Assembly: GCA_027365345.1 (NCBI GenBank)
Contig: DAHXNO010000191.1
Coordinates: 1 to 57,435, forward strand
Reading direction: 5' to 3'
From: Granulicella sp.
GTDB taxonomy: Bacteria; Acidobacteriota; Terriglobia; Terriglobales; Acidobacteriaceae
Length of the DNA: 57,435 nucleotides
The notes under the pieces: model-generated
What the model saw: the letters and a program-made list of their open reading frames with translations, nothing else
What the model was told of the DNA's origin: nothing
Databases searched by the model: none
Position numbers and translations under genes: made by a program
In this document: piece by piece, positions 2,653 to 39,844 of the stretch
Layout of the letters: the number at the start of each line of letters is the position of its first letter
How positions within the stretch are numbered: the stretch's first letter is position 1

Positions 2653-3647
2653 TTCCTCGCATCGCCATCAGTATCGGAGACCCAGCCGGAGTCGGGGCTG
2701 AGATCGCGCTCAAAGCCCTCGCTGACCCGGAGCTGGCCCCCATCGCCCACTGGTATCTCATCGCTGACCGTTCCGCTCTCAGCGCTGCGGGCCGTATCGC
2801 TGGCATCGACCCTGCCGGGCTGCCCTGCACCATCGTGGAAGAGGACGGCCTCGCCAGGGATCATCCCATCGCCTTCGGTGAACTACGCGCCGAGTACGGT
2901 CTGGCCGCCATCGGCTACGTTCGCCGCGCCGTCACTCTGTGCCTGAGCGGCGAGGCGGACGCCATGGTCACAGCGCCACTCAACAAGGAGGCGGTGACGC
3001 TCTCCGGCCGCTCCTTCTCCGGCCACACCGAATACATTGCGGAGCTCACCGGCGCAGCCGAGTCGCGCATGCTGCTGGTCTCTGAAAAGCTCTCCACCGT
3101 TCATGTCAGCACCCACATTCCGCTGGAGCAGGCCTGCCGGCTGGAGCCTTCCAGCATCCTCCGCACCATCGAACTCGGCCATCAGGCGCTTACTCTCATG
3201 CTGCAAAGACCGCCGCGCATTGGCGTCTGTGGTCTCAACCCCCACGCCGGCGAACACGGCCTCTTCGGCGCGCAGGACCAGGAGATCATCGCTCCCGCCA
3301 TCGCTCAGGCTCGCTCCCTGGGCATGGAATGCTCCGGCCCGTGGCCTCCAGATACGATCTTCGTGCGCGGACTGCGCGGCGAATTCGATCTCATCGTAGC
3401 CATGTATCACGATCAGGGCCACATTCCCATGAAGCTCATCGACTTCGCAGGAACGGTGAATGTTTCCCTGGGTACGCCCATCCTGCGCACCTCCGTAGAT
3501 CACGGCACCGCATTTGATATTGCCGGCCGCAACCTGGCCGACGCCACCAATATGAAGGCGGCGATGCGTCTGGCGTCACGCATGGCCAGCGGCAAGCTCG
3601 CCCTGGCCGCCGCATCGCCCTCCTCTGCCGCGGGAGGCGCTCGCTGA
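2649..3647 (+). CDS. pdxA2: PdxA2-type 4-phospho-aldonate dehydrogenase
   Basis: This 332-residue member of the PdxA family has the N-terminal signature ISIGDPAGVGAEIALKAL, a metal-binding histidine in FSGHTEYIAELTG, and HDQGHIPMKL plus DHGTAFDIAG near the C-terminus. PdxA proper oxidises 4-phosphohydroxythreonine in vitamin B6 synthesis. PdxA2 paralogues next to OtnK/DtnK kinases oxidise and decarboxylate 4-phospho-threonate or -erythronate to dihydroxyacetone phosphate. The context (kinase, transporter, aldolase) favours the catabolic role; a B6 role is the alternative. The gene overlaps the kinase by 4 bp and is 1 bp from the symporter. Confidence 0.85.
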   Translation: MIPRIAISIGDPAGVGAEIALKALADPELAPIAHWYLIADRSALSAAGRIAGIDPAGLPCTIVEEDGLARDHPIAFGELRAEYGLAAIGYVRRAVTLCLSGEADAMVTAPLNKEAVTLSGRSFSGHTEYIAELTGAAESRMLLVSEKLSTVHVSTHIPLEQACRLEPSSILRTIELGHQALTLMLQRPPRIGVCGLNPHAGEHGLFGAQDQEIIAPAIAQARSLGMECSGPWPPDTIFVRGLRGEFDLIVAMYHDQGHIPMKLIDFAGTVNVSLGTPILRTSVDHGTAFDIAGRNLADATNMKAAMRLASRMASGKLALAAASPSSAAGGAR

Positions 3648-3648
3648 G

Positions 3649-5208
3649 ATGCATCCCGTCGATGTCATCCTGATCGCCGCCTATCTGGTCACGGTGGTCG
3701 GCATCGGTCTGCGTTTCTCGGGACGGCAAAGGACTACGGATGCCTACTTCATCGCCGGCCGTTCGGTGCCCGGATGGGCCGCGGGTCTCTCCCTGCTTGC
3801 CACCACCATCACCAGCGTCACCTTTATCGCCTATCCCGGAGCCGCTTACGCAGGGAACTGGACGCTGCTGGGTCCCGGCATCCTCTTCCTTGCCGTCATC
3901 CTCGCCATCGGCCCCGTGGTCGTTCCGTTTCTTCGTCACTCGGTTGTCATGTCGGTCTACGAGTACTTTGGCCAGCGCTTCGGCCGCGTCGTCCGCTTGT
4001 ACGCCGCCTTCACCTTCGCTTTGGGCAGCTTCGTCAAGATGGGGTTCGTCTTTTATCTGCTGGCTCTCTCCGCCGCCAGTTGTACCGGCTGGAGCATGGG
4101 TTGGCTCATCGCGGTGCTTGGGGTCATCACCGTCTTTTACACGCTGGTGGGCGGCTTCTCCGCGGTCATTTGGACGGACGTGGTCCAAGGGTTTCTCTTG
4201 TGGGCCGGCATGGCCGCCACGCTGGTCATCCTTCTTTTCTTCTCCGGGGCCAGGCTCCCGGCGATCTTTCATCTCCTCGCCTCCAGCCACAAGATGAGTC
4301 TCGGCTCCATGCACTTTGATCTCTCCCAGCCCACCTTCTGGACCCTGGCCATCTATGGCGTCTTCTTTTACCTGCAGCGCTACACTGCGGACCAGAGCGT
4401 GGTGCAGCGCTACCTGGCAGCCAAATCCGATCGCGGCGCCCTGCGCGGCATGGTGTTGGGAGCATCTCTCTGCCTTCCGGTTTGGACCGCCTTCATGCTT
4501 ATCGGCTCGCTGTTGTGGGCCATCTATCACCTAACAGGCCAGGCGCTTCCCGCCGGCGTCACGCGCGCCGATCAGATCTTTCCGCTGTACATGGTGGCGC
4601 ATATGCCTTCCTGGGTGAGTGGCGCGTTCCTGGCTGCGCTCTTTGGAGCCGCCATGTCCATGCTGGCGTCGGATCTCAACTGCGTGGGGCTCATCCTGAT
4701 GCAGGATGTTTACTCCCAGTTCTATCCGCGCCGCACCGATGCGCAGCGGCTTCGCTTTGGCAAGCTGGTGATCGTCCTCTGCGGTTTGCTGGCCATCGCG
4801 GTCGCGCTCGGCCTCACCCATACCCACGGCTCAGCTTTGGCCCTGTATTACGCCGCCACGGCCATTCTGGCCGGCGGGCTGGCGGGGCTATTTGTGCTTG
4901 CCTTTCTCTTCCGGCGCGCCAGCCGCGCTGCCGCTCTCATCGGCGTCGTCTCTAACCTGATCTTCACCACCTACGCCGTCCTGACCTTGCACGGTGGAAT
5001 GATCCTCAACCTCCACGGCCTCAACTACCCGTGGAGCGAATACACCATCGGCGCCTGCGGCAACGTCCTGTTTCTGGCCGCCGGCCTGCTCGGCACAGCG
5101 CTCTTTCCGGCCAAGGCCGACTCCACGCTCCGCTACACCCTCTGGGATTGGCTCGCCAATCGCAGGCAGAGACCCCTCTCACCCATGCAACCAGGAGAAC
5201 CCTCATGA
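3649..5208 (+). CDS. Sodium:solute symporter (SSS family)
   Basis: This 519-residue integral membrane protein has about 13 hydrophobic segments. The first begins HPVDVILIAAYLVTVVGIG and is followed by DAYFIAGRSVPGWAAGLSLL, the typical SSS region for substrate and Na+ binding. SSS transporters import sugars, organic acids or vitamins with Na+. Its place directly between the PdxA2-type dehydrogenase and the aldolase suggests that it imports the sugar acid or sugar degraded by this operon. The start is 1 bp after the pdxA2 stop, and its end overlaps the aldolase start by 4 bp. The substrate is not predictable. Confidence 0.88.
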   Translation: MHPVDVILIAAYLVTVVGIGLRFSGRQRTTDAYFIAGRSVPGWAAGLSLLATTITSVTFIAYPGAAYAGNWTLLGPGILFLAVILAIGPVVVPFLRHSVVMSVYEYFGQRFGRVVRLYAAFTFALGSFVKMGFVFYLLALSAASCTGWSMGWLIAVLGVITVFYTLVGGFSAVIWTDVVQGFLLWAGMAATLVILLFFSGARLPAIFHLLASSHKMSLGSMHFDLSQPTFWTLAIYGVFFYLQRYTADQSVVQRYLAAKSDRGALRGMVLGASLCLPVWTAFMLIGSLLWAIYHLTGQALPAGVTRADQIFPLYMVAHMPSWVSGAFLAALFGAAMSMLASDLNCVGLILMQDVYSQFYPRRTDAQRLRFGKLVIVLCGLLAIAVALGLTHTHGSALALYYAATAILAGGLAGLFVLAFLFRRASRAAALIGVVSNLIFTTYAVLTLHGGMILNLHGLNYPWSEYTIGACGNVLFLAAGLLGTALFPAKADSTLRYTLWDWLANRRQRPLSPMQPGEPS

Positions 5209-6017
5209 ATCGATTGCAGCAGGCTGTCCAAAACAATGGTGGAAGAACCCTCTTGGGCGCCGCCCTTTACTTTTACGATCCCATCTTTCTTGAAATCGCC
5301 GCTGAACTTGGCTACCAGGCCATCTGGATTGAGATGGAGCACGGTCACATTACCTTTGCAGAGGCAGCCGACCTCTGCCGCATGGCCGCCGGCACCGGTA
5401 TGTTGACGATGATCCGGATCCCGGATACCCAGCGGGCCAACGTGCTCAAGGCGGCAGAGTGCGGGCCAGACATTCTGGATGTGCCCATGATCGAACGGCC
5501 GGAGCAGATCCATGAACTCCAGAAGTTCGCCCGCTTCGCGCCCGAGGGCGCCCGCGGCGTCTTCTCCGTCTCGCGCGCCTACCACTACGGCGTGCCCAGC
5601 GACATGGTCGCCACGCAGCAAGCCATCAACGCGAACCTTTGCCTGATGGCGCAGATTGAAACCGGCAGCGGCCTGGAACGGGTGGAAGAGCTGGCGGCGA
5701 TCCCGGGAGTCGATCTGTTCATCGGGCCGGCCGATCTGGCCGCCAGCCTTGGCCACACCTCTCACACCAGTCATCCGGAGGTGAAGGCCGCGGCAGAGCG
5801 GATCGTGCGCGCCGCGCGAGCCCAATCCAAGAGCATCGCCACCGCCTGCGCCCCCACCGACTACGCCTTCTGGATCGAGTTGGGCATCGACCTGCTCTTC
5901 TGCTCCAATGACATCGCCTGTCTTCGGCAAGCCGGCGGCGACAATCTCAGCAAGGCCCGCGCCCTGCTTGCCCAAGCCACCGCTTCGGCTCATCGTCATG
6001 CGGAGGTCAAGCCGTGA
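5205..6017 (+). CDS. HpcH/HpaI family class II aldolase
   Basis: The 270-residue protein begins at ATG 5205, preceded by AGGAG and overlapping the symporter stop. It shows the family core: WIEMEHG (about residues 41-47), a metal-ligand Glu in AQIETGSG and a metal-ligand Asp in FIGPADLAASLG. HpcH/HpaI enzymes cleave 2-keto-3-deoxy sugar acids or related compounds into pyruvate and an aldehyde using a divalent metal. Here it would give pyruvate plus an aldehyde that the next gene, an alcohol dehydrogenase, could reduce. The kinase and PdxA2 route alone does not need an aldolase, so the operon may serve two branches or one unrecognised pathway. Confidence 0.87.
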   Translation: MNRLQQAVQNNGGRTLLGAALYFYDPIFLEIAAELGYQAIWIEMEHGHITFAEAADLCRMAAGTGMLTMIRIPDTQRANVLKAAECGPDILDVPMIERPEQIHELQKFARFAPEGARGVFSVSRAYHYGVPSDMVATQQAINANLCLMAQIETGSGLERVEELAAIPGVDLFIGPADLAASLGHTSHTSHPEVKAAAERIVRAARAQSKSIATACAPTDYAFWIELGIDLLFCSNDIACLRQAGGDNLSKARALLAQATASAHRHAEVKP

Positions 6018-7195
6018 GCTCGCACCTCCAACCGCGTTTGCCGTTGGCCTTGCAGCAGGTCCAGCGGCTGGTCTTCGGCGCCGGCTCGCTCGCCGCCGCC
6101 ACGGACCACCTGCGCGCCATTGGGGTAGCGCGTCCCTTTGTCGTGGCGACACGCAGCAGCCGCAATCACGCCGCCAGCCTCCATCCCGGCGCGTGCATTG
6201 ACTCCAGCATCAGCCGCGAGCCCACGCTTGAAGACTTCCATCGTCTCCTGCACCAGGTCCAGGGCTTCAGTCCGGATGCCATCGTCGGTATCGGCGGGGG
6301 CAGCGCCCTGGACGTAGCCAAGCTCCTCGCTGCGCTCGCCACCGGCCGCCAATCTCTTGCCGAGGTGTGGGGCATCGGCAATCTCGCCGCGCGCGAGCTG
6401 CCTCTCTTCTGCATCCCTACAACCAGCGGAACCGGCAGTGAAGTCTCTCCCAACTCGATTCTGCTCGACGAGTCGGCGCCTGCCAAACGAGCGGTGATCA
6501 GCCCCCATCTGGTTCCAGACGCCGCCTTCATCGATCCGGAGCTGACGGTCACCGTCCCTCCACACATCACCGCCGCCACCGGCATCGACGCTATGACGCA
6601 CTGCATCGAAGCGTATGCCAACAACTTCGCGCATCCGATGGTGGATACCTGGGCGCTGGACGGCATTCGCCACATTGCCGGCCATCTTGTCACCGCTGTG
6701 CGAGCGCCGGAGGACCTGGACGCCCGCACCCATCTCGCCCTTGGCAGCCTCTACGGCGGTCTCTGCCTGGGCCCGGTGAACACCGCGGCCGTACACGCGC
6801 TCAGCTATCCGCTGGGCAGCCGCCATCACCTTGCGCACGGCCACGCCAACGCTGTTCTGCTGCCGCACGTGCTACGTTTCAACCTCTCCGCGGCTCCGCA
6901 GCGCTATGCAGCCATCGCCTTGGCGCTGGGGGCCGCCGCCTGCGGCTCCGCTACCGATACTGCCCACGCCGGCATCTCTCAGCTTTGGCGAATGATGGAA
7001 GCGACCGGCCTTGAGATGCGGCTCTCCGCGCTGGGAGTTGCGGAGCGGGAGATTCCATCCCTGGCCGCGGAAGGGCTGGCGATCACGCGTCTGATGCGCA
7101 ACAACCCCCGCTCCATCACCCAGCAAGAAGCCGAATCCATCTATCGCGCTGCCTACCATGGCAGAGAAGAGGAACTGACCCAACATTGCGAGTAA
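6014..7195 (+). CDS. Iron-containing alcohol dehydrogenase
   Basis: The 393-residue protein starts at GTG 6014, overlapping the aldolase stop by 4 bp. It is a group III (Fe-type) alcohol dehydrogenase related to maleylacetate reductase and lactaldehyde reductase. It has the nucleotide-binding GIGGGSALDVAKLLAAL, PTTSGTGSEVSP, and metal-ligand residues in DAMTHCIEAY and in the His-rich HHLAHGHANAVLLPH. It probably reduces or oxidises the short aldehyde or alcohol linked to the aldolase reaction with NAD(P)H. The precise substrate is unknown. Confidence 0.87.
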   Translation: MSSHLQPRLPLALQQVQRLVFGAGSLAAATDHLRAIGVARPFVVATRSSRNHAASLHPGACIDSSISREPTLEDFHRLLHQVQGFSPDAIVGIGGGSALDVAKLLAALATGRQSLAEVWGIGNLAARELPLFCIPTTSGTGSEVSPNSILLDESAPAKRAVISPHLVPDAAFIDPELTVTVPPHITAATGIDAMTHCIEAYANNFAHPMVDTWALDGIRHIAGHLVTAVRAPEDLDARTHLALGSLYGGLCLGPVNTAAVHALSYPLGSRHHLAHGHANAVLLPHVLRFNLSAAPQRYAAIALALGAAACGSATDTAHAGISQLWRMMEATGLEMRLSALGVAEREIPSLAAEGLAITRLMRNNPRSITQQEAESIYRAAYHGREEELTQHCE

Positions 7196-7197
7196 CC

Positions 7198-8877
7198 ATG
7201 CAAATCAGCACCATTCTTCGTCGCCGTATGCCATGTCTTGCCGCCGTCTCTCTGCTCATCGCGGCCCTCGCCGCGCCTGCGAACCGGCTTCGTGCCCAGA
7301 CGCACAGCGCTGCCGGCATCTTCACCGTGCTGCAACCCAGCGACTATCGCCACTACGTCAACCAATTTGCGCTGGATGAGCGCGCCGCCACCGGCAAAAC
7401 GCCAGACGACGAATGGCCATGGATAGCCGCCAACATTCCTCTCTTTTCCAGCTCCAACAAGCAATTCGAGGAGATGTATTACTTCCGCTGGTACGCCTGG
7501 ACAAAGCACCTGGTGGACACTCCCAAGGGCTACATCATCACAGAGTGGTTGCCCGCCCCGGCCAAGCCCTTTTATGGCGCGCTGCCGGATGCCGCCCCGT
7601 TTCACCTGCGGGAGGCCCGCTGGCTGCGCAATCCCAGCATCGCCGCCGATGACGCTCGCCTTTGGGCCCAGCAGGACGCCGGTGCGCGCAAGTACAGCTT
7701 TCCCTGGGCAGACAGTGTGCGTCAGGTAACGCTCGCTACGGGCGATCCCCGGCTTGGAACCGATCTGCTCCCCGCGCTCATCGCAAACTACACCGCCTGG
7801 GCAGACCATTTTGATCCATCCGTCGGCCTTTATTGGCAGGTTGATACCCGCGACGCCATGGAGAAGTCGATCGGTGGCGATGGCTATCGCACCCCACTCA
7901 ACAGCTACATGTACGCCGATGGAGAGGCGATCGCAGCCTTCGCCCATCGCCTTGGCCAGAATGCGCTTGCGCAGCAGTATGCGGCCAAATCCGCAGCTCT
8001 CCGCCGACTCATCGAAACCCGGCTTTGGAACCCCAGGGATCAGTTCTATGAGGATCTCTCGCCCTCGTCCAACTCGGGTATCCGGACTCAGAAGAAGTTC
8101 AAAGACCCCGGCACGGTGCTCAAGTTTGCCGGCGTGCGCGAATTGATCGGGTACATTCCGTGGGAGTTCTATGCGCCCACGCCGAGCCATGATGTCGCCT
8201 GGAAGCAGCTCTTTGACCCACGTGGATTTGCAGGGAAATTCGGACCAACCACAGCCGAGCGGCGCAGCCCCCGCTTTCGTTTCGCCTCCAGCGACCAATG
8301 CACCTGGAACGGTCCCTCCTGGCCCTATGCCACCACCCAGACGCTCCTCGCGCTGGCTAACCAGCTCAACCAGCCGAAGGCCGGCAATCCATCCATCGGT
8401 AAGCAGGACTACTATCATCTCTTCTCCAACTATGTTCTCTCCCAGCACATCATGCTACCCAGCGGGCGCTCCATCGACTGGATCGATGAGGATCTGGACG
8501 CCGACACTGACGAGTGGCTCGCCAAGGACATCCTCATTCAAAAGCACTCCTGGCAGGTTGGCCGCGGCAATTACTACAACCACTCCGGCTTTGCCGATCC
8601 GCTCATCACGGGTCTGCTGGGTTTGCGCCCTCGCGCCGACAACAAGATCGTCGTCTCCCCTCTGCTTCCGCCGGGTGAGTGGAGCTATTTTGCCATCGAT
8701 GGCCTGCCCTATCACGGCCATCTGCTGACCATCCTCTATGACCAGACTGGCGCGGAATATCATCGTGGCCGCGGCCTCATGCTCTTTCTGGACGGCAAGC
8801 GCCTCGCCAGCCGTCCTAATCTTGGCCGGCTGGAGGCCACGCTTCCCGCACAACCTGTCTCCAAAGCCCGAGACTAA
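7198..8877 (+). CDS. Secreted MGH1-like (six-hairpin) glycoside hydrolase
   Basis: The 559-residue protein has a signal peptide (basic MQISTILRRR, hydrophobic core, cleavage near LRAQ at about residue 34). The mature part resembles the (alpha/alpha)6 glycosidase fold shared by MGH1-like and GH63-like enzymes, with DQCTWNGPSWPYATTQTLLA and a C-terminal YYNHSGFADPLITGLLGL. I chose ATG 7198, 2 bp after the previous stop; a TTG at 7186 is possible but would sit inside that gene. It likely trims oligosaccharides in the periplasm to feed the symporter and catabolic genes upstream. Substrate is not assigned. Confidence 0.75.
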   Translation: MQISTILRRRMPCLAAVSLLIAALAAPANRLRAQTHSAAGIFTVLQPSDYRHYVNQFALDERAATGKTPDDEWPWIAANIPLFSSSNKQFEEMYYFRWYAWTKHLVDTPKGYIITEWLPAPAKPFYGALPDAAPFHLREARWLRNPSIAADDARLWAQQDAGARKYSFPWADSVRQVTLATGDPRLGTDLLPALIANYTAWADHFDPSVGLYWQVDTRDAMEKSIGGDGYRTPLNSYMYADGEAIAAFAHRLGQNALAQQYAAKSAALRRLIETRLWNPRDQFYEDLSPSSNSGIRTQKKFKDPGTVLKFAGVRELIGYIPWEFYAPTPSHDVAWKQLFDPRGFAGKFGPTTAERRSPRFRFASSDQCTWNGPSWPYATTQTLLALANQLNQPKAGNPSIGKQDYYHLFSNYVLSQHIMLPSGRSIDWIDEDLDADTDEWLAKDILIQKHSWQVGRGNYYNHSGFADPLITGLLGLRPRADNKIVVSPLLPPGEWSYFAIDGLPYHGHLLTILYDQTGAEYHRGRGLMLFLDGKRLASRPNLGRLEATLPAQPVSKARD

Positions 8878-12365: not shown

Positions 12366-15029
12366 CTACTCAAACAGCCAATCCAGATTCGGCGTTCCAC
12401 TCTCACCGCCCCGGTCAAAGTTCACCTGTGCGGCCACCTGGTAATCTGAGGGAATAAATCCCAGCACCACATACTGTCCTTTGCCCAGGTCGAGCTCATT
12501 CTCACCCGTCGGCAGCGGCTTGGCCCACACCGCCATGGACTTGATCCTGGGCGACTGCACGGCGTGCAGCAGCACCAGGTTCCACTGCTCCGTATCCGGA
12601 TCGAGCACGGAGTTTTTGCGCGAAGCTCCGCGGGTGAATCCCACCAGAATCTGCGCACTCTGCGCCAGGTTGAAGCGCAGCGTCCCTCCCTGTGCCGGAG
12701 CGATGCGAATCCCCTTCATCCCGCTCAGCTCTGGAGCAAGCTGTGAGATCGTCTCTGCTGAACCGGCAAAGAGCCCTGCGCCTTTGGCGACGGTAAACTC
12801 TTCGCCGGCGCCCGGCAGCAAATGGAAGGCCACCTGCGGCAGCGTCTTGGCAGCGCTGGCCTCCGTGATGGGAGCGCCGGAACTCAGCGCCGCCACGCGG
12901 CTCTGGAAGGTAGCCAGCTCCTTCTGATACATCGGCAAGCACTGCTGCCAACTCGGGAAGTGCTTCATCCCGCCGGGGAAGGGAATCTGGCGTTGCGTCG
13001 TCTCCATGCTCGTCGCCGTCCGGTAGGCGGGGCCGGCCAGGCTGGTCAGTTCGCTGTAAAGCTGCACGCTCTCCGCCAGCAGCGGCTCGGCGCGGCGCAG
13101 GTGCTCCATGTTTCGGTCATATCCGTACAGCAGCACCTCTTGCGCGGCCCGGATGCGATCGTTGTAGAACTGCATCAGCAGGGAGATGCAGTGCATATCG
13201 TTCACAATCCGCTCATACTCCGCCCGGTTCTCCGTCACAAACGGCGCAGCGGCCTGCGCCGCCGCATAGGCCTGCTGTGAGGCTTTCACCGTCTCATCGC
13301 TCACCCCGATCGGCGTCTCACCGTGGTGCGGCTGCTGCTTCACCTCTTCCGCAACATACTCATCCAGCCGCTCGCCCGGCGGTCCGTCCCCCGTCCAAAG
13401 CGTCTGTGCCGGGTTGTAACGCGCCGGGTCGATCAGTTGGGGCATCGTCATCCCCAGCACAAGCGCCTCCCGATTCCCCTCGGTGATGCCGATACGAGGC
13501 AACAGGCTCGGCTGGCACGGCCCCGCAAGCGTATACGCCTCCAAAAGCTTTTCCCCGGCCTCAGCCGTGCCAAAGCGCTGGGCAAACTGTGCCGCCCAGT
13601 AAGCGTGCTCTTTCTGCGGATCGCGAAACGGATTCCACGCATACCGCCCCCACGCCGCAAACCAGATCCAGTCGCGATCCGTCTGCATCAGCGGCGGTTG
13701 GGTCGCATCGCCGGAGTACGGCCAGTCCCAATAGCGCAGCGGATACAGATGCAGGCCGCCAATGCCGATCCGGGGAAAATTCATCAGCGTCTGGCGGATA
13801 AAATCCGGATCACCCCAGCGGAACGGCTCCAGGTCAGACAACAGATGAACATTCGCGATGGTCACATTGGACTCTTCGGCCAGCATCCTGAACCTGTCCC
13901 GCACCGGCCCGCGCACGTTTGTCCAGGTAAGCGACTCGCCGTTCCATTTGAACATCGTGTCGATGTTCGGGTAGAGCGGCAGCGCCGCCTTCATCACCGC
14001 GGCAATATCGGTGGCATGGGCCCGCACTACAATCGGCGGCTCGGTTCGCTCTTCGCTCTCCTTCAGCCCATCCAGCACGCCGGGGATGATCGCCTCCGTC
14101 ATCCACTGCGCGCCGTCATGAGGATTCAGCGCCTCGCCCAGCGTCATCATCAGTCCGGCATGAGGATACTCGCGCACAAACTCTGAGATCACGTAACGCG
14201 TGTACGCCGCGGCCAGCGGCGTGGGCGTAGAGAGGTGATAGGGCAAGCCATGCGCACGCGCAAAGGCATGCGACAGGTGAATGTTATAGAACCCTTGCAG
14301 CACCCAGATCCCGCGCCGGTTAGCCTCCCTGGTCAGCCACTGGAACATGGCGATGTTCTGCTCCAACTGCGCGGTGGGCAGTTCCTGCGCCTCAGGGTAC
14401 CTGGGCAGCTTCAATAAGCTGGTGAACGGATGCCCGTTCCAAAGGTAGAGCGTGTTGTACCGCTCCTGGGCCAGCATATCCAGGTATTTGGTCCACTCCG
14501 CCTTGTCATAAAAGAAAGGGAAGTCCTTGGGCGTATACGGATAGTCGTACTCCGCTCCCTCGTAGGTAATCTCCGGCTTTTGCATGCCGATGCACACGCC
14601 GCGCAGCTTCAGCGCCGGGTGTTCCATCTCATCGATGCCAACCGGCAGTCCATGCGCCGCGCGCACCCGGTCGGCAAGCTCCAACTCGCCGTACATCACG
14701 CCGGAAGGGTCGCTTCCGGATACCACCCAGGTATTGCCCACCTGCCGTATCAGGAACGCCTCCTCAGCCTGCGGCCACCACGCCGGCAGATGGAATCGGC
14801 TCAGCTCGCCGGCCGAGCCCACCGCTGCCATCACCCGCGCTCCCCTGGGAGCATCCTTCACCTCAGCCAACGCAGCTCGCAGCTCCTGCGCGCCGTATAA
14901 CTCGCGCGGCGTAGCCTGTTTGGCCGTGATCACCTTGACCGGCGCCGCCAGTGCTCTGCCGCCCGCAAGCGGAGCCAGTATCATACCCGCCAGCAGCAGC
15001 CGGTGGGCCTTGCATAGGGAAAGATTCAT
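12366..15029 (-). CDS. Exported alpha-glucuronidase-like glycoside hydrolase (GH20b/GH67-type)
   Basis: This 887-residue protein has an N-terminal signal peptide (LLLAGMILAPLAGGRALA). Next comes a zincin-like N-domain of the GH20b/GH67-N type, with YGAQELRAALAEV at about residue 44 and VVSGSDPSGVMYGELELAD at about 102. A TIM-barrel region follows (LRGVCIGMQKPEI, YNTLYLWNGHPFTSL, LMMTLGEALNPHDG). The C-terminus looks like a beta-sandwich. Related proteins are annotated as alpha-glucuronidase-family enzymes acting on acidic polysaccharides; activity here is inference. It lies 9 bp behind the DUF5060/DUF5605 gene, so the two form a minus-strand operon convergent with the sugar operon. Confidence 0.65.
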   Translation of the reverse strand: MNLSLCKAHRLLLAGMILAPLAGGRALAAPVKVITAKQATPRELYGAQELRAALAEVKDAPRGARVMAAVGSAGELSRFHLPAWWPQAEEAFLIRQVGNTWVVSGSDPSGVMYGELELADRVRAAHGLPVGIDEMEHPALKLRGVCIGMQKPEITYEGAEYDYPYTPKDFPFFYDKAEWTKYLDMLAQERYNTLYLWNGHPFTSLLKLPRYPEAQELPTAQLEQNIAMFQWLTREANRRGIWVLQGFYNIHLSHAFARAHGLPYHLSTPTPLAAAYTRYVISEFVREYPHAGLMMTLGEALNPHDGAQWMTEAIIPGVLDGLKESEERTEPPIVVRAHATDIAAVMKAALPLYPNIDTMFKWNGESLTWTNVRGPVRDRFRMLAEESNVTIANVHLLSDLEPFRWGDPDFIRQTLMNFPRIGIGGLHLYPLRYWDWPYSGDATQPPLMQTDRDWIWFAAWGRYAWNPFRDPQKEHAYWAAQFAQRFGTAEAGEKLLEAYTLAGPCQPSLLPRIGITEGNREALVLGMTMPQLIDPARYNPAQTLWTGDGPPGERLDEYVAEEVKQQPHHGETPIGVSDETVKASQQAYAAAQAAAPFVTENRAEYERIVNDMHCISLLMQFYNDRIRAAQEVLLYGYDRNMEHLRRAEPLLAESVQLYSELTSLAGPAYRTATSMETTQRQIPFPGGMKHFPSWQQCLPMYQKELATFQSRVAALSSGAPITEASAAKTLPQVAFHLLPGAGEEFTVAKGAGLFAGSAETISQLAPELSGMKGIRIAPAQGGTLRFNLAQSAQILVGFTRGASRKNSVLDPDTEQWNLVLLHAVQSPRIKSMAVWAKPLPTGENELDLGKGQYVVLGFIPSDYQVAAQVNFDRGGESGTPNLDWLFE

Positions 15030-22893: not shown

Positions 22894-23714
22894 CGATCGG
22901 TCCTCATCTCTTCCACCCCGCCGGCTTTTCGAACCATCCGCGAGGTCTCCACTATGGAGACCAGCCGGCCTTTGCTCAATGTCAGCGTGGTCTGCGCCAG
23001 CGGTCCCGCCAACTCCGCCTGGTGCGTGGTCAACAGCAGCGTGCGCGTCAACCCGTTCGGCGAAGGCTCAGCAACGTAACCCAGCAGGCGCGAAATCATA
23101 CTCTGCGCGGAGCCGGCGTCAAGGTTAGAGAAGGGTTCGTCCAGCAGCAGCAGATCCGGCTCAGAGAGCAGCACCCGCGCCAGCGAGGCGCGCTGCCGCA
23201 TGCCCTGCGAGTACTCCCCCACCCGGCGCGTATTTCCCGGGTCCAGGCCCACCTCGGTCAGCGCCTGAGCTGCCGTCTCGCTCCGCCAACTGCGCTTGGA
23301 AACCAAAGGCTTCCGGCCGTCCTCATACAAGCCGGCAAAGTAGCTCAGGTTCTCCATCCCCGTCAGTTCGTCGTAGAGCATGGTGGCGTGGCTCATGTAG
23401 GCCACCACGCCTCGCTGGTGGCGCGGCTCTTCTCCGAATACCTTCGTCTCACCGTAGCTGGGCGACTGCAAGCCCGCGATCACCTTCAGCAGCGTAGACT
23501 TTCCAGCGCCATTCTCGCCCAGCATCACCACGCTGGATCCGGCGGCCAGTTGGAGCGAGATCTCCCGCAGAGCCGCGAAGCTGCCGTAAAGCCGCGACAC
23601 GCGTTTCAACTCCACGGCCGGGAGCGCTGAGGCAGCCACCGGCGCTTCGGCAGGTGCAGGCAGCTTTTGATCGGGCTCTGCCGCGGCAGCCGGGGGATCG
23701 TTCCAACTTGTCAT
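22890..23714 (-). CDS. ccmA: Haem exporter ATP-binding protein CcmA
   Basis: This 274-residue ABC ATPase has Walker A GENGAGKST (near residue 60), the ABC signature YSQGMRQR, Walker B LLLLDEPF and a switch-region His in LLLTTHQAEL. Position at the head of the ccmB-ccmC-ccmD block identifies it as CcmA rather than a general ABC subunit. It has an N-terminal Pro/Ala-rich extension of about 30 residues and a loop insertion after the Q-loop. It is the first gene of the operon, so its promoter should lie in 23715-23900. Confidence 0.9.
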   Translation of the reverse strand: MTSWNDPPAAAAEPDQKLPAPAEAPVAASALPAVELKRVSRLYGSFAALREISLQLAAGSSVVMLGENGAGKSTLLKVIAGLQSPSYGETKVFGEEPRHQRGVVAYMSHATMLYDELTGMENLSYFAGLYEDGRKPLVSKRSWRSETAAQALTEVGLDPGNTRRVGEYSQGMRQRASLARVLLSEPDLLLLDEPFSNLDAGSAQSMISRLLGYVAEPSPNGLTRTLLLTTHQAELAGPLAQTTLTLSKGRLVSIVETSRMVRKAGGVEEMRTDR

Positions 23715-23905
23715 ATCCGCTCCTAAGTATAGAACTTCGCCTTGCGTTGCCGTGTGATCCGCCTCTGTCCGCTCGCGAGCCGCAGAACTGGAACTGCGGC
23801 CATGGGTGCCGGCGGAGCCATCGCATGGCAGAGGAAAGGCCGACGAAAAGTTGCGCCGGAAGGAGTTCGGTGATACACGTTAATCATTCCTCTCGCTACG
23901 GCGGG

Positions 23906-24067
23906 TCGAATTTCATGCAGAGTGGTTGAGGGACGAGCCCTACGACGCCACGACAACCGGACAGAACAAGGTACCGGTGTCAACTCTCTCCTGTTTAAGT
24001 TCGTTGAGCCAGCTCGACGAACGGAGCGCTGCCCAGCAGCGCTCGGCACAGGGCACATGAGATTCGG
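23906..24067 (+). promoter_or_regulatory. SAM riboswitch (SAM-I/SAM-IV clan) in the thrC-like leader
   Basis: The core follows the SAM-I pattern. An 11-bp P1 pairs 23906-23916 with 24057-24067, including two G-U pairs. P2 has outer GTGG/CCAC (23922-23925 with 23948-23951) and inner AGGG/CCCT (23929-23932 with 23938-23941), with the conserved GAGGGAC-GCCC and CAACC segments. P3 pairs ACCGG with CCGGT (23956-23960 with 23974-23978) and is followed by GTGTCAACTC. P4 is a 10-bp hairpin at 23999-24022. An extra perfect 8-bp hairpin at 24024-24044 stands before P1 closes, which classic SAM-I lacks. It is about 115 nt before the threonine-synthase-like start. Confidence 0.8.
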
Positions 24068-24160
24068 TGGAAGCAGACGCTTTTTCCCAAAGCGAGTCCG
24101 TTCCACTTACTCTCCTTAGCCCCATCCAGACAACAGAGAGCGGCATACCAGGGCAGCACC

Positions 24161-24175
24161 CTTCGGCCACCGGAG
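24161..24175 (+). promoter_or_regulatory. Possible Shine-Dalgarno-sequestering hairpin before thrC-like gene
   Basis: CTTCGG (24161-24166) can pair with CCGGAG (24170-24175) across a 3-nt loop with one G-U pair. The GGAG within the second arm is the only plausible ribosome-binding site for the ATG at 24183, 7 nt away. A further hairpin at 24068-24105 (TGGAA...TTCCA around CGCTTT/AAAGCG) lies between the riboswitch and this site. No poly-T terminator is evident, so translational control is more likely than attenuation. This is inference from base-pairing only. Confidence 0.4.
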
Positions 24176-24182
24176 TCGAACG

Positions 24183-25493
24183 ATGTCCTCTGTCAGTCCA
24201 TACCTATGTTCCACAACCCGATACGAACTTCGCTGCAACGAATGCGGCAAGAGCTACGGCAACCGTCCGCTCTCCGCCTGCCCAGACTGCCTTGCGCCCC
24301 TGGAGGTCCACTACGATCTGGAGCCCCTTCAGGGCCATCTTACGCGAGAGAAAGTCGGTCGCGGCCCGGCCAGCATCTGGCGCTATCGGGATCTGCTCCC
24401 CGTGATCCGGGCCTTTCAGCCCGATCTTCCGGTCGGCTTTACGCCCCTCGTCCGAGCCTCCAATCTTGGCAAGCGCCTTGGCTCGGACAGCCTCTACCTC
24501 AAGAACGATGCTGTCTGCTCTCCCACACTCAGCTTCAAGGACCGCGTGGTCGCCGTCGCCCTGGCCAACGCGCAGGCCTTCGGATTCACCACGGTAGGCT
24601 GCTCCTCCACCGGCAACCTGGCCAATGCAACGGCCGCCCAAGCCGCCCGCCTGGGGCTCAAGACCTGCATCCTCGTGCCCTCAGACCTGGAGGCCGCCAA
24701 GGTGCTCAATACGCAGGTCTACGGAGCGCGCCTGGTGCGCATCGCCGGCAGCTACGACCACGTCAACCGGCTCTGCACCCTCATCGCGGACGAGTACCAC
24801 TGGGGCCTGGTGAACGTGAACCTTCGCCCCTATTACGCTGAGGGCTCCAAGACCGTCGGCTATGAGATCGCGGAGCAACTTGGCTGGCGCTTGCCGGACA
24901 ACATCGTCTGCCCCATGGCCGGCGGCTCATTGATGCGCAAGATCCGCAAGGGCTTTCAGGAGTTCATCGCTCTTGGCCTGGTTGAGGCCAAACCGGTCCG
25001 CTTCTTCGGAGCGCAGGCCAGCGGCTGCTCGCCCATCGCCCATGCGGTCAAAAACGGTTGGGACTACATCGAGCCGCAGCGCCCACAGACCATCGCCCGC
25101 TCGCTGGCCATCGGCAACCCGGCTGACGGCCCGGCAGCGGCCAGGATGATTCAGGAGACAGGAGGATGGGCCGAGGATGTCTCGGACGTCGAGATGGTCG
25201 CTGGCATCCAGGAACTGGCTGAAGATGAAGGCGTCTTCACCGAGACGGCAGGGGGAGTCGCCACCGCAGTCACCGCTCGTCTGCTCGCTCAGGGCCGCAT
25301 CCGCCGCGACGAGCTCACCGTCGTCTGCATCACCGGCAATGGACTCAAGACTACCGACGCGCTGCAAGGACGTTTTGCCGAAGAAGCAGCCGTTCGCCCC
25401 AGGCTCTCGGATTTTGACGCCTACCTTCGTTCCGTCCAACCTGACCTCATCGGCAGCCAGGCAGAACCCACACTTGCAGGAGGTGTCTATTGA
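24183..25493 (+). CDS. thrC: Threonine-synthase-like PLP enzyme, candidate sulfur-transfer homocysteine synthase
   Basis: This 436-residue fold-type II PLP enzyme has an N-terminal zinc ribbon (Cys18, Cys21, Cys33, Cys36), the PLP lysine in SPTLSFKDR (Lys119), the substrate loop GCSSTGNLANATAAQAARLG, a glycine-rich PMAGGSLMRK and the C-terminal FTETAGGVATAVTARL. The closest named family is threonine synthase, which acts on O-phosphohomoserine. Two context signals argue for another product: a SAM riboswitch in its leader and a MoaD/ThiS-like carrier that overlaps its stop. Low SAM switching on a threonine enzyme would starve methionine synthesis, whereas a gamma-replacement making homocysteine would help it. 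The family is clear; the reaction is not. Confidence 0.85.
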   Translation: MSSVSPYLCSTTRYELRCNECGKSYGNRPLSACPDCLAPLEVHYDLEPLQGHLTREKVGRGPASIWRYRDLLPVIRAFQPDLPVGFTPLVRASNLGKRLGSDSLYLKNDAVCSPTLSFKDRVVAVALANAQAFGFTTVGCSSTGNLANATAAQAARLGLKTCILVPSDLEAAKVLNTQVYGARLVRIAGSYDHVNRLCTLIADEYHWGLVNVNLRPYYAEGSKTVGYEIAEQLGWRLPDNIVCPMAGGSLMRKIRKGFQEFIALGLVEAKPVRFFGAQASGCSPIAHAVKNGWDYIEPQRPQTIARSLAIGNPADGPAAARMIQETGGWAEDVSDVEMVAGIQELAEDEGVFTETAGGVATAVTARLLAQGRIRRDELTVVCITGNGLKTTDALQGRFAEEAAVRPRLSDFDAYLRSVQPDLIGSQAEPTLAGGVY

Positions 25494-25798
25494 GCATCAG
25501 GATCGTCCTTCCCACCGCCCTGGCCCGTCACACCGAAGGCCAAAAGTCCTTTGAGTCGCAGGCCGAGGACCTTCCCAGCCTGCTTGCCGAGTTCGACGCC
25601 AAGTATCCCGCGCTGGCGCAGAATGTGAAGGATCCCAATGGCAAGCTGCGCCGCTTCGTCAATGTCTATGTCAACGAGGAAGACATCCGCTTCCTGGGCG
25701 GCGAAGCGCACCGCTTCGCGGACGGCGATGAGGTCATGCTGATCCCGTCCATCGCCGGAGGATGCTGCCCCTGCGTAGAGTGGCGGGCGAAATTCTGA
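25490..25798 (+). CDS. MoaD/ThiS-like sulfur carrier with Cys-rich C-terminal tail
   Basis: This 102-residue beta-grasp protein starts at TTG 25490 behind AGGAGG, overlapping the thrC-like stop. It shows the carrier pattern: RRFVNVYVNEEDIRFLGGEA, DGDEVMLIPSIAGG. Carriers usually end at this Gly-Gly (residues 90-91), whose carboxylate becomes the thiocarboxylate. Here 11 more residues follow (CCPCVEWRAKF), so a protease would have to expose the glycine, or the Cys cluster itself holds sulfur. CysO of Mycobacterium and HcyS of Wolinella are the precedents for amino-acid synthesis. Confidence 0.85.
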   Translation: MSIRIVLPTALARHTEGQKSFESQAEDLPSLLAEFDAKYPALAQNVKDPNGKLRRFVNVYVNEEDIRFLGGEAHRFADGDEVMLIPSIAGGCCPCVEWRAKF

Positions 25799-25918
25799 CT
25801 GGAACTCTGACTGAAGCTTTGTGCGGCCGGTTCATTGCGCAGAGCGCCGGCGCAGCATCCCGTCTGCAACAAGTTTGCACGAGTCTGGCGGTCCGCTGCG
25901 ATGCTTGCTGCCGCAAGC

Positions 25919-27169
25919 TCAGGCGCGGTACCCTTCCAGCCTCCGGCAAGCTTCCGCCAACTCCGCGTCTTTCTTCGCGAAGCAGAAGCGGAGCAGATTC
26001 TCGCCCGGATTGACGCCCTTCGCGTCCTCGGCAAAGAACGCTGATCCAGCCACCGCGGCGACTCCGGTCTCGGCCAGCAGCCGGCGGGCCTTCTGCTTGG
26101 CGCCGGTCCCCGGAATCCGCTCCGCGTCGGCCAGAACGTAATAGGCGCCGGACGGGATCGAAGGCGTCATCCCGGCAGCGGAAAGTGAACGGCACAGCCG
26201 GTCGCGCTTCGCCTGATGCTCCGTGGCAATCTCGCGGTAAAAGCTCTCCGGCAGTTCCAGCAGTCCCGCCGCCACTCCGTGCTGCAGCGGAGTGGGAGCG
26301 CAGACGTAGATCAGATCATGGAAGTATCCAATCGCCTGCAGCCAGCGTTGGCTGGCCACCAGGTATCCCAGCCGCCATCCCGTCACGGAAAAGGTCTTCG
26401 AGAACCCTGAGATCAGAATGGTTCGTTCCGCCATCCCCGGCAGGGTCATCATGCTGATGTGGCGCGCTCCGTCGTAGACAAAGTGTTCGTAGATCTCATC
26501 GGTAAACACGAACAAGTCATGCTCAATGGCGAGCGCCGCAATCGCCTCCATCTCCGGCCGCGTCAAAACCTTACCGGAAGGGTTTGACGGGCTGTTCACC
26601 AGAATCGCCCGCGTACGCGGCGTGATCGCCCTGCGCAGCCTGTCTGTATCCAGGGCAAACGACGTCTTCTCCAGCGGCGCCACCACGGGCACAGCTCGCA
26701 TCGCGCGCAGGCTGTTCACGTGATACCCATAGAACGGCTCCAGCAGCACGCATTCGTCGCCTGGGTCAAGCAGCGCCAGCAGCGCGGCATGCATCGCTCC
26801 GGTAGCCCCGCTGGTCACCAGAACCTGCGACTGCGGATCGACGATCAGGCCGTACCAACAGGCAAGTTTGCGCGCGATGGCCTCGCGCAAAGGCGCAATG
26901 CCATCCAGCCGGGTGTAGATGTTCTGCCCGGAGTGGATGGCCTCCACCGCCGCGGCCACAACCGGGTGCGGCGGGTCAGTGTCGCAGACACCCTGCGCCA
27001 GGTTGATGCCGCCAGCCTCCGCGCAGACCATCGTCATCGCGCGAATCTCGGAATGGACAACGCCAGGCGCCAGCTCGCTCAGAGAAAGATTGCCCCGAGA
27101 TTCCTGCAGGCCGTCTTCGTCCTGCTCGCGTAGCTGGCGTATCTGAGGAGAGCTTGTCGTCCTGGGCAT
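25919..27169 (-). CDS. Class I/II PLP aminotransferase
   Basis: From ATG 27169 (AAGGA upstream) this gives 416 residues of the aspartate/kynurenine/methionine aminotransferase group: INLAQGVCDTDPP, the cofactor loop SGATGAMHAALLALLDPGDE, VNSPSNPSGKVL, FTDEIYEHFVYDG and the PLP lysine in SGFSKTFSVTGWRLGY. It would transfer amino groups between an amino acid and a 2-oxo acid. The exact substrate is not determined. The gene sits 19 bp behind lon on the same strand and converges with the sulfur-carrier gene; an upstream in-frame extension would overlap lon and is unlikely. Confidence 0.88.
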   Translation of the reverse strand: MPRTTSSPQIRQLREQDEDGLQESRGNLSLSELAPGVVHSEIRAMTMVCAEAGGINLAQGVCDTDPPHPVVAAAVEAIHSGQNIYTRLDGIAPLREAIARKLACWYGLIVDPQSQVLVTSGATGAMHAALLALLDPGDECVLLEPFYGYHVNSLRAMRAVPVVAPLEKTSFALDTDRLRRAITPRTRAILVNSPSNPSGKVLTRPEMEAIAALAIEHDLFVFTDEIYEHFVYDGARHISMMTLPGMAERTILISGFSKTFSVTGWRLGYLVASQRWLQAIGYFHDLIYVCAPTPLQHGVAAGLLELPESFYREIATEHQAKRDRLCRSLSAAGMTPSIPSGAYYVLADAERIPGTGAKQKARRLLAETGVAAVAGSAFFAEDAKGVNPGENLLRFCFAKKDAELAEACRRLEGYRA

Positions 27170-37169: not shown

Positions 37170-39125
37170 TCAGGCTCTCGATCGCACGGAATGTACCCTC
37201 AGCGGCTCCATCGAGGCACTCAGACTCTCTGCCGGCCGGTATCCGTCGTGCCATGGCATCTCCGCCTGACGCAACAAAACCGCCAGCAACGCGTAATAGT
37301 TGTCCGTCAGATACCCCTCGTAGCCCATGGGAGTCCCATCCCAGCGCCTCCAGTCATTCGACATTCCGTGAGCGCCACGGCCGGAAAAGCCGCACCGACC
37401 ATACTCGTCCAGCATGGCAAACAGAATCTCGTCGGCCTCGTCTTTGCGACCCAAATCGTACAGCGCGGCCAGCGTGAAGAAGGTGAAGCTGCCGGTGGCG
37501 CCGCCATTTTCATAATTTTGAAAGCCGTCCGCGTTATCTGGCCGCGCGCCGCAGCCAAAGCGTCCATTCCCCCTCCGGTCAACACAGTCCTCGCGAGCCA
37601 CAGACACCAAATTGCCAGGTAGCCCCATGTGGAACTGATCGTATCCAACCTCCTTCATTTTGGCCGTCAGCTTGTCCATGATGGCGTTGGCCTGGGGCCT
37701 GGGCACCAAGCCGTAATGGATAGCGATTCCATTCACCCAGAGAAAATAGTAGTCGTGTAATTTGCCATCCGCGCTGCGCCAGCCGGCCAGAACGCCAGTC
37801 GCTGGATTGTAGAAAGCGTTGTAATACGCGGTGCGCAACTTGGCCGCGGCGGCAAGATAGCCCATGGCTTCGCCATCGCTCTTCACCACGGAGGCCATCA
37901 TCGCCATGTCCTTCAGCGCGCGGTACGCCAGCGCGTTCGCATAGGCATCCTCGTAGCCAAAGCCGATGGTATCCCACCAGTTCGATGGCCGAAACTTTGG
38001 ATCTCCGTCGGACCAGATTCCGGAGTTCCCGCTCACGGCATATTTGATCAGCCCATTGCCATTGGTATCCGTGGCCAGCATGGCGTCCGCCCAGCCCCGG
38101 ATGCCCTTGTAGTTCGCTGACAGCCAGGCATCGCTGTCGCCGCCGCGTACGCAGTCGGCGGCCGCGATCAACAGAGAGGGATAGGTGTCCGATGCAATCG
38201 CCGGATGGTCCGGAATCGCGGACATGCCATAGGCAAAGCCGCCGTTCAGGATTCGATCCAATGTTTGCCGGACGATCGCAAGCGCCGTAAGCCCCTGCGC
38301 CAATGGTGGCGTGTGCAGGGCAAGGTCGGCATATTCGTAGTAGCAGAATGCGCAGGAATCGCTGGCCGTATTGTTCGCGAGCGCATGCAGAGAAGGATTG
38401 AGCTGCAGCACATCAAGCCAGTTTCGGCGGAACGCATCCAAGCGCGGGTCATTCGAGATTCCCGAGACCTGCGGATAAATCGCCATCACATCGAGCACAT
38501 AGACCACATGACGGAACGCCTCTGTGGCCCCTGGCAGCGACAGGCTGGCGGTCTGCGCGGAACGGCTGGACACGTACGTCAACTCCAGATCCGGCGCATT
38601 CGTGGTGATACGCACAGATCCCTGGCCGGGAACATGCATCAGTACGGGAGCTTTCAGCAGGCCTTCCTTACCAAAAACTCCCAGCACCGTGCTGTGGGCT
38701 TGGTCGAGAGAGAAATCGAAGACCATGGCCGGCGGTTGAAATTCTGCCGACCAATCCGAGGTGAGAGTGATCTGATCCTGGGAGAGTTCAAACGTCCAGC
38801 AGGGCGGTGTGTTTGCGTTGGCTGCGGACAAACGGTATTCCATCCGCAATCCCGTATGGGAAGCGGAAGCCGACGCACGATAGCCTCCCTCAGCCGGGCC
38901 CGGAGCCAGGATGTTGGCGCCATGCCGGCCCATGCCCAGGCCATCCAGACTGAAGCTGAGAACCTCCGGCGCGGTGGTCGAAAGCAGCATCTTGATGCTT
39001 CGCGAGGTAAATGGCGCCGTGTCCTTGGGACTCACCGAATCTTCAGCAAAGATCAGCCTTTGCGGGATGAGCGAACCCGCCGTGAACAGTCCGGCGGCTT
39101 TGAGAAAATCCCTGCGTTCAAGCAT
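37170..39125 (-). CDS. Tat-exported six-hairpin glycosidase-like protein
   Basis: From ATG 39125 this gives 651 residues with a twin-arginine signal (MLERRDFLKAAGLFTAGSLI). The mature part has an N-terminal beta-sandwich and an (alpha/alpha)6 barrel (SNWWDTIGFGYEDAYANALA, WGFCG-like NGRFGCGARPDNADGFQNYE, GGATGSFTFFTLAALYDLGR). It belongs to the six-hairpin glycosidase superfamily; the specific GH family is not clear. It stands alone, in contrast to the clustered glycosidases at 7198-16565. Confidence 0.72.
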   Translation of the reverse strand: MLERRDFLKAAGLFTAGSLIPQRLIFAEDSVSPKDTAPFTSRSIKMLLSTTAPEVLSFSLDGLGMGRHGANILAPGPAEGGYRASASASHTGLRMEYRLSAANANTPPCWTFELSQDQITLTSDWSAEFQPPAMVFDFSLDQAHSTVLGVFGKEGLLKAPVLMHVPGQGSVRITTNAPDLELTYVSSRSAQTASLSLPGATEAFRHVVYVLDVMAIYPQVSGISNDPRLDAFRRNWLDVLQLNPSLHALANNTASDSCAFCYYEYADLALHTPPLAQGLTALAIVRQTLDRILNGGFAYGMSAIPDHPAIASDTYPSLLIAAADCVRGGDSDAWLSANYKGIRGWADAMLATDTNGNGLIKYAVSGNSGIWSDGDPKFRPSNWWDTIGFGYEDAYANALAYRALKDMAMMASVVKSDGEAMGYLAAAAKLRTAYYNAFYNPATGVLAGWRSADGKLHDYYFLWVNGIAIHYGLVPRPQANAIMDKLTAKMKEVGYDQFHMGLPGNLVSVAREDCVDRRGNGRFGCGARPDNADGFQNYENGGATGSFTFFTLAALYDLGRKDEADEILFAMLDEYGRCGFSGRGAHGMSNDWRRWDGTPMGYEGYLTDNYYALLAVLLRQAEMPWHDGYRPAESLSASMEPLRVHSVRSRA

Positions 39126-39844
39126 GTTTTTAACCCTCTTCCGTGAAGTGTCAGTGGAATGCGATCCCGCCAATCGGCCTGCCCTTGCTTTGTGTCGGCG
39201 CGCACGTGGGTGGAGCACAAATGGTGTTGAGTCTGTCCCGCCATCGCCAAATGCGCTGCCGCTCTGCTTCGGCAATGCGGGAAGCAATCTGCTGTTTGTT
39301 CATGCAAAGGCGGCAAGCTCCATCCATCTGAGCTTCGCAACCGAGTCGCAGGTAGGGAAGGAGCCACCTCGCGATGGCCGTGCGTCCTCACGCGCAGGGA
39401 CTCAGTTTGCCATGGCGGTGGCGCCACGGACCGCCTCCCATCGTATCGTCGCCCGGCTGTCCCTCTTGTTGCGCTAAGCCACAGTCGCAGCGTAGCTTCC
39501 GCATCACCGGGATCTCGCAGAGGGCGCCATTGCCATGCGCGGCATCGCTCGCAATCAAGTTCCAGCACCACCTCTCCGTCTCAGCCCGGTCCAACCCCAT
39601 CCCTCACTCTTACAGGCAGACCGCTGCGATCTCTGCTCCTCGCGAGCTTACCCAGCCGTCTGCAACCATTCGGTAAGATCGGGCAACCGGGTTGTGCGGG
39701 CCCTTGCCGGCGAAGCACGAAGCGACCGGCCATAGCAATGCGCACAATACCTGTGAGGTCCCGTGAGCCTCCAACCTTGAACCGCTTCAGGGCGGTGCGC
39801 ATGGTCTCTCTTCGTCACCAGGTTGCACAACCTGCGCTCCGCTC
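39126..39844. other. Long gene-free region upstream of clpC end
   Basis: This 719-bp stretch separates two minus-strand genes. It contains only short overlapping frames with no recognisable domain. The promoter of the glycosidase at 37170-39125 must lie at the left side. A decayed gene cannot be excluded, but I could not identify one. Confidence 0.45.

Follow-up and report, generated by a model that had tools for sequence, protein, structure and literature searches.

In Mycobacterium tuberculosis, the CysM/CysO/Mec system comprises a pyridoxal phosphate (PLP) enzyme of fold-type II, a carrier protein and a JAMM peptidase, and makes cysteine. In Wolinella succinogenes, according to the work of Krishnamoorthy and Begley in 2011, a protein thiocarboxylate reportedly gives homocysteine by way of HcyS/HcyD/HcyF and MetY; a metalloprotease trims the HcyS carrier from a longer precursor, and its partner enzyme, of the MetY type, acts on O-acetylhomoserine. 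Concerning MetM and MetO, the abstract of Hasebe et al. of 2024 is said to name thiocarboxylated MetO as the sulfur donor and to describe the route as spread among other bacteria and archaea. In the part of PMC12172450 that was available, Hasebe et al. 2024 is cited for MetM as a homocysteine synthase of Streptomyces with an S-adenosylmethionine (SAM) riboswitch upstream, the metO gene of S. albulus is mentioned, and MetM homologues are noted in cyanobacteria; the Wolinella work of 2011 is cited in PMC5764234, also available in part. The locus studied here lies in a contig of 57,435 nucleotides from Granulicella sp. (the window, contig C55 of a genome of 4.195 Mb in 208 contigs) and, judging from its sequence and gene context, it is very probably a MetM/MetO operon that would make homocysteine under the control of a SAM-I riboswitch.

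The locus consists, on the forward strand, of the SAM-I riboswitch followed by the genes metM and metO. The gene metM (24183-25493) encodes a threonine-synthase-like PLP enzyme of fold-type II with 436 residues, predicted to be an O-phosphohomoserine-dependent homocysteine synthase, while metO (25490-25798) starts with TTG and encodes a sulfur carrier of ThiS/MoaD fold with 102 residues. The stop codon of metM and the start codon of metO overlap by 4 nt (TTGA). Since the flanking genes on both sides are on the opposite strand, metM and metO can be taken as an operon of two genes that has a leader of its own. The arrangement is like that of Streptomyces MetM/MetO, where a threonine-synthase-like enzyme and a carrier gene have a SAM riboswitch on their 5′ side, and like that of an actinobacterial (Nonomuraea) member of the MetM clade, with the same riboswitch and a carrier. 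The closest named relatives by locus were the unclassified acidobacterium L061 (MetM 82% identical) and Edaphobacter lichenicola (L062, 76%), which points to an acidobacterium, very probably one of the Acidobacteriaceae. The initial annotation, made from the sequence, had claimed a SAM-clan aptamer ahead of a threonine-synthase-like PLP gene overlapping a ThiS-like gene, and both claims were borne out: the aptamer by the covariance match and the closed P1 helix described below, and the gene pair by matches of MetM to PALP (221 bits) and to the threonine synthase model TIGR00260 (270 bits, cut-off 167.1), by the match of MetO to the ThiS family (46.6 bits) and by the overlap itself.

The riboswitch model RF00162 matched positions 23910-24023 of the forward strand with 45.2 bits (E 3.8e-7), slightly above its gathering score of 44.4, and a genome-wide search that scored 150 of the 361 first-look candidates gave no second match at E up to 1. 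Extension of the match through 25 aligned relatives and folding yielded a full SAM-I (S-box) aptamer at 23907-24066 (+). The 5′ strand of P1, CGAATTTCATG (23907-23917, +), pairs at 11 of 11 positions, one of them T-G, with the 3′ strand CATGAGATTCG (24056-24066, +), which lies beyond the Rfam match and closes the aptamer also in the relatives, with few changes. All 11 pairs were present in the unconstrained minimum-energy fold of 23907-24070. The Rfam match ends 43 nt early because of an insertion of about 50 nt at the top of P4 (23999-24044, +), which forms two uninterrupted hairpins of 10 pairs (23999-24022) and 9 pairs (24024-24044). These hairpins are absent from the 25 aligned relatives, a few of which have a shorter insertion, while the 5′ strand of P1 and the aptamer core are common to the window and these relatives; relatives without the insertion scored 64.1-82.7 bits. 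The aptamer of the window is intact, and its P4 is unusual. A decay of the riboswitch, with a degenerate P1 suspected from the low Rfam score, was discarded, as the true 3′ strand of P1 was found 33 nt past the end of the Rfam match. Insertions of the P4 type may conceal other S-boxes near the cut-off.

Concerning the distribution of the riboswitch, RF00162 was found 5′ of metM in 14 of 14 loci (L006-L019) of the family, by which we mean genome group f1, with 20 genomes in a phylum sample of 199. It was also found in 13 of 18 named loci (not in L066, L067, L071, L074 and L076, the last of which starts inside the gene), and in four of nine further loci, those of Nonomuraea (L141), a deltaproteobacterium (L122), a planctomycete (L136) and a kiritimatiellean (L135); at the other five of these nine, Microcystis (L115), L112, L121, L123 and L090, it was not found. 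In other acidobacterial families it was upstream of none of six loci (L020-L025) within a flank of 1.5 kb. By analogy with SAM-I riboswitches in general, the switch is expected to reduce expression at high SAM.

The relationship of MetM to threonine synthases was studied with sequences and structures. When the 199 genomes of the phylum sample were searched with MetM (E up to 1e-60), the matches formed two groups: those of 45 genomes, with at least 46% identity (that of G112 being a fragment of 185 residues), and the rest, with 38% at most. In a tree built from 46 selected rows, from which the S. albulus MetM was absent, the window protein fell within a clade of 32 rows (support 100/99), together with cyanobacterial, Nonomuraea and other homologues. 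Outside this clade were the ThrC of the same genome (L056, on contig C128), as well as L003, which is a third paralogue, and 11 others with up to 38% identity; L056 and L003 are long branches, and their exact placement is unsure. MetM was 55.5% identical to the Microcystis homologue, 55.2% to that of Nonomuraea and 37.1% to the ThrC of its own genome. Against three solved threonine synthases, this ThrC scored 270, 261 and 254 bits versus 169, 166 and 160 for MetM. Lys119 of MetM (codon at 24537-24539, +; LSFKDR), the predicted PLP lysine, was invariant in two alignments, of 20 and 27 rows, and aligned with the SFKDR of the solved threonine synthases. The third paralogue (L003:1465-2673, G000:C138), an open frame of 402 residues, lacks the PLP lysine, with TTEAR in place of SFKDR, and looks like a pseudoenzyme.

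Two motifs distinguish the clade from the canonical ThrC. N[VI]N[LI]R-x-[YF]Y-x-[ED]-G was present in 32 of 32 rows, where L056 has SVNPYRLEG, and GNPADG in 31 rows, with GTPADG in the remaining one, where L056 has GNPASW. Residues S155, R160 and N188 of the Thermus thermophilus ThrC, which we take to be phosphate ligands, align with N213, Y218 and G247 of MetM, while L056 keeps S, R and N; a literature search on ThrC residues returned nothing relevant. In threonine synthesis, the phosphate helps to activate water. A change at the site of phosphate binding would be in keeping with an enzyme that trades hydration for the addition of a thiol.

The occurrence of MetM was compared with that of MetX, which was called when a protein exceeded the curated cut-off of NF001209 (331 bits). 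In the family, MetX was present in one of 16 MetM genomes, which is the genome studied here, and in four of four genomes without MetM (p 0.001). In the phylum sample the corresponding figures were 2/45 and 39/154 (p 0.0014), or 3/45 and 43/154 when weaker MetX matches, with E up to 1e-60, were included (p 0.0023). Counted per genus, which is the only one of these counts that partly allows for kinship, MetX was present in 2 of 31 genera with MetM and in 21 of 88 without it (p 0.037). There is thus an inverse relation between MetM and MetX. Among 35 genomes searched for MetA, a single one had it, G175, which carries MetM and belongs to another family; the 20 family genomes gave no MetA.

The mechanism that we propose would begin with MetM drawing O-phosphohomoserine from the threonine branch and eliminating its phosphate on PLP. 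The C-terminal thiocarboxylate of MetO would then be added to the gamma carbon, and the resulting homocysteine would supply methionine and SAM, while the SAM-I leader would lower expression when SAM is plentiful. In this respect the initial annotation, which had proposed homocysteine formation from O-phosphohomoserine and carrier sulfur as a possible new route, gave what is now the best-supported reading, but the route is not new, as MetM/MetO was published in 2024 for Streptomyces (according to the available part of PMC12172450); the variant feature here is the masked carrier.

Several observations weigh against the assignment of the locus to homocysteine synthesis. As to the enzyme, curated hidden Markov models name MetM thrC. 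Moreover, in the available part of PMC12172450, the Microcystis homologue, which is 51.6% identical to S. albulus MetM and lacks the riboswitch, acts as a threonine synthase and deaminase in vitro and is highly expressed with no rise in methionine; with O-phosphohomoserine, the same enzyme gave an unidentified peak near methionine. These activities, together with the TIGR00260 match above its cut-off, could mean that MetM duplicates ThrC as a threonine synthase, possibly one that also deaminates threonine, and that the carrier serves something else. The structural comparison agrees with such a relationship: the AlphaFold model of MetM (mean predicted local distance difference test, pLDDT, 83.2; predicted template modelling score, pTM, 0.85) was nearest to plant and bacterial threonine synthases, with Z-scores of 40.1 for that of Arabidopsis (2c2b) and 33-36 for the bacterial ones of its class, other matches being CapA2 of Alistipes (Z 35.5) and E. 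coli ThrC (Z 27.9). This alternative is nevertheless unlikely. It has to face the presence of the separate ThrC L056 with canonical motifs, the SAM riboswitch, the overlap of metM and metO, the inverse occurrence of MetM and MetX, and the replacement in MetM of the three presumed phosphate ligands. The canonical thrC was one of the genes that the initial annotation had proposed to look for, and its finding rules out that metM is the sole thrC of this genome. In Bacillota, according to the available parts of the sources, both thrC and hom1 appear among the T-box genes, hom1 also among those with tandem SAM riboswitches (PMC12452182), and a Granulicella proteome lists ThrC (PMC7315648).

Other points on the same side concern the carrier, the MetX relation and the direction of the switch. 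Of the 15 family loci (L001, L006-L019), 14 have a carrier gene beside metM, which speaks for the assignment, but L018 showed none, and no carrier was found within the 1.5 kb fetched at 6 of 15 loci of other families (L027, L030-L034; 49-57% identical). Both MetM and MetX are missing from 115 of the 199 phylum genomes, by which the absence of MetX proves little by itself, and four other MetM genomes of the family match MetX weakly, at 108-140 bits where the cut-off is 331. When 14 leaders were folded with P1 either forced or blocked, no consistent OFF direction appeared: with P1, the accessibility of the Shine-Dalgarno region was lower in eight leaders, higher in five (including that of the window) and equal in one. 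In local folds run without shuffle control, this region was paired in some leaders, partly paired in those of the window and L061, and mostly looped in that of L009. The candidate Shine-Dalgarno sequence of the window, GGAG (24172-24175, +), was recognized by sequence 7 nt 5′ of the metM ATG and is partly paired in the local fold. On the forward strand, the stretch 23600-26200 showed no terminator-like site.

Finally, also to be counted against the assignment, metY and metX are both present in this genome, and its MetM has changed faster than that of its sister. On contig C192, metY is directly followed by metX; MetY is over the cut-off of TIGR01326, and MetX is over that of NF001209 and under that of TIGR01392. 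Among five compared, the MetX and MetY of a family member without MetM, G007, were the most similar to them (64% and 80%), which makes them appear to be of the type native to the family. In addition, genes of the cystathionine synthase/lyase type occur in tandem on C198 (two) and singly on C54. That MetM/MetO is the sole homocysteine route of this genome is ruled out by metY-metX. The initial annotation had regarded a complete metX/metY pathway next to a single thrC as evidence against its proposal; a complete metY-metX pair does exist, but so does the separate ThrC. With L009 as the outgroup, the window MetM showed 44 unique changes and that of the sister L061 showed 12 (p 2e-5), and the end branch of the window MetM was 0.21, versus 0.05-0.11 in close relatives.

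From these data it might be thought that metY-metX took over and that metM-metO is a decaying duplicate which is losing its function in this genome. It would be in line with this that, of the 20 family genomes searched, this is the only one with both MetM and a MetX over the cut-off, and that the carrier tail is longer than the usual two residues. However, neighbouring genes have also changed more in the window lineage (the aminotransferase gene 40 vs 22; lon 13 vs 5 or 11 vs 7), and the excess of metM over them was not significant (p 0.11-0.75), so a relaxed constraint on metM in this genome is neither shown nor excluded. Besides, the riboswitch core and P1 are intact, allowing for the P4 insertion, Lys119 and the clade motifs are kept, and both frames are open. 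The faster change of MetM led us to lower slightly the confidence placed in a homocysteine-forming MetM/MetO operon, which is still high, and to raise slightly that placed in decay, which we consider quite unlikely.

As to the carrier, the best match of MetO in the PDB was M. tuberculosis CysO (3dwg, 83.6 bits), which makes CysO its nearest solved relative. MetO does not end in Gly-Gly: Gly90-Gly91 are followed by 11 residues, CCPCVEWRAKF (codons at 25763-25795, +). In this it differs from the carrier of Nonomuraea, which ends in GG, and from CysO, which ends in GG in the alignment. Tails after Gly-Gly were seen in 14 of the 14 family carriers read, and had two residues in 11 of them and 11 (window), 20 or 28 in the others. 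In the other acidobacterial families of the sample, nine of the nine carriers read end in GG; no carrier was found at 7 of the 30 loci overall. The 80 named loci included 51 carriers ending in GG, 25 with a tail, and four loci where no carrier was found; L139 has the sole tailed carrier among the cyanobacteria of this set. Beyond the phylum, tailed MetO carriers occur in Nitrospinota and Planctomycetota. When the 14 family carriers were pooled with the named acidobacterial ones (L061-L077), the tail had two residues in 21 of 31 and was lacking in two. That the length of two residues is kept while the sequence varies suggests that having a tail is under selection. Many tails contain Cys, as does the CCPC of the window. 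In the deltaproteobacterial locus L122 (5257-5772), whose metM riboswitch scores 96 bits, the MetO extension is a C-terminal NIL domain (PF09383, 51.5 bits). No description of a masked MetO was found in the literature library searched, a statement limited to that library, and masked MetO carriers in the family are possibly new.

The tail makes it reasonable to regard MetO as a precursor from which the residues after Gly-Gly would be removed. The initial annotation had proposed to look for a MoeB-like activator and a JAMM protease, and both turned up on contig C113, where a JAMM gene, a second carrier gene and a gene for a MoeB/MoeZ-type activating enzyme (E1) with a rhodanese-like end occur in a row. 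The C113 JAMM has a complete HSH-x7-S-x2-D stretch (motif as in PMC8832034). In the available part of the same source, a Deinococcus radiodurans JAMM splits MoaD fused to MoaE so that a Gly becomes C-terminal, which makes it plausible, by analogy, that a single unmasking protease acts in the present genome. MetO is then likely to be unmasked by JAMM, most probably that of C113, and the trimmed carrier would be adenylated and sulfurated by the C113 E1; the same JAMM may also free homocysteine from its adduct with the carrier. The predicted cleavage would be like that of D. radiodurans, where JAMM removes what follows the terminal glycine of the carrier, with the difference that a molybdopterin system is concerned there and methionine here. 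Besides the C113 E1, a second gene of the ThiF family, on C196, is a further candidate.

The presence of residues after the carrier Gly-Gly, together with a JAMM in the genome, is a likeness to Wolinella HcyS/HcyD as we understand that system; unlike there, the partner of the carrier is MetM, and the MetY of this genome is on another contig beside MetX. A closer analogy to CysM/CysO would have the carrier sulfur going into cysteine from O-phosphoserine or O-acetylserine instead of homocysteine. The CysO match and the row of JAMM, carrier and E1 genes elsewhere in the genome could be read in that sense, but the PLP enzyme beside the window carrier is not of the CysM type: it is a relative of threonine synthases, models of the thrC type lead its matches, and the best cysteine synthase model listed for it gave E 3.9e-9. 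Furthermore, SAM is the expected regulatory ligand, MetM is inversely related to MetX, and JAMM adjoins a different carrier, all of which makes the synthesis of cysteine most improbable. Neither cysteine synthase nor cystathionine beta-synthase was among the 50 structural matches of MetM listed by VIA-align, although this excludes nothing.

With the MetM/MetO operon retained as the preferred assignment, it is worth considering how far masking extends in the family. JAMM was found in 20 of the 20 family genomes searched, including four without MetM, in 14 of 14 genomes with tailed MetO, and in five of nine with a GG-ending MetO (weakly in G026); it was not found in G128, G019, G153 and G169, which belong to one family. 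Its presence in family genomes lacking MetM and in five of those nine rules out that JAMM is a partner specific for MetO. At the family JAMM loci, a second carrier occurred in 17 of 20, and it was masked in 17 of 17, by a tail in 16 and by fusion to E1 in one. In-frame fusion of a carrier to a MoeB/MoeZ-type E1 was observed at 6 of the 30 JAMM loci scanned (L142, L143, L150, L152, L157 and L163; no carrier was found in eight of the 30), with the Gly-Gly in an internal position and, in L142, with a rhodanese-like stretch between both parts. In the genome studied here, four PF02597 proteins were found, all of them masked: MetO by its 11 residues, the C113 carrier by 18, the ThiS of contig C156 (L035) by nine after GGG (it ends GGG-TSTLSSNPM), and the MoaD of contig C66 (L036) by fusion to MoaE. 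One could tentatively generalize that the ThiS-fold carriers of Acidobacteriaceae are made masked and that one JAMM must unmask them, MetM/MetO being gated by SAM at the mRNA and by proteolysis at the carrier, with JAMM possibly releasing also homocysteine from the carrier; we consider this a serious possibility that falls somewhat short of probable.

Regarding the surroundings of metM-metO, the upstream side carries a gene for a YbaK-type Cys-tRNA deacylase and CcmA/B/C-like genes, whose matches to the Ccm models are below cut-off. The downstream side carries a PLP aminotransferase gene and lon; the matches listed for the aminotransferase, including methionine aminotransferase models, were all under cut-off. 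Elsewhere in the window, a cluster at 1513-8877 contains SBD_N/NBD_C kinase, PdxA, sodium:solute symporter, Fe-ADH and MGH1-like hydrolase domains and perhaps serves sugar acid use, and the open frames of 887 and 705 residues at 12369-15029 and 37173-39287 (-) had no Pfam match at E 1e-10.

A MetM/MetO route would explain methionine synthesis in Acidobacteriaceae, which are mostly without MetX and showed no MetA in the family genomes searched. Genes of the phylum labelled threonine synthase deserve a second look if a SAM riboswitch and a carrier gene adjoin them.

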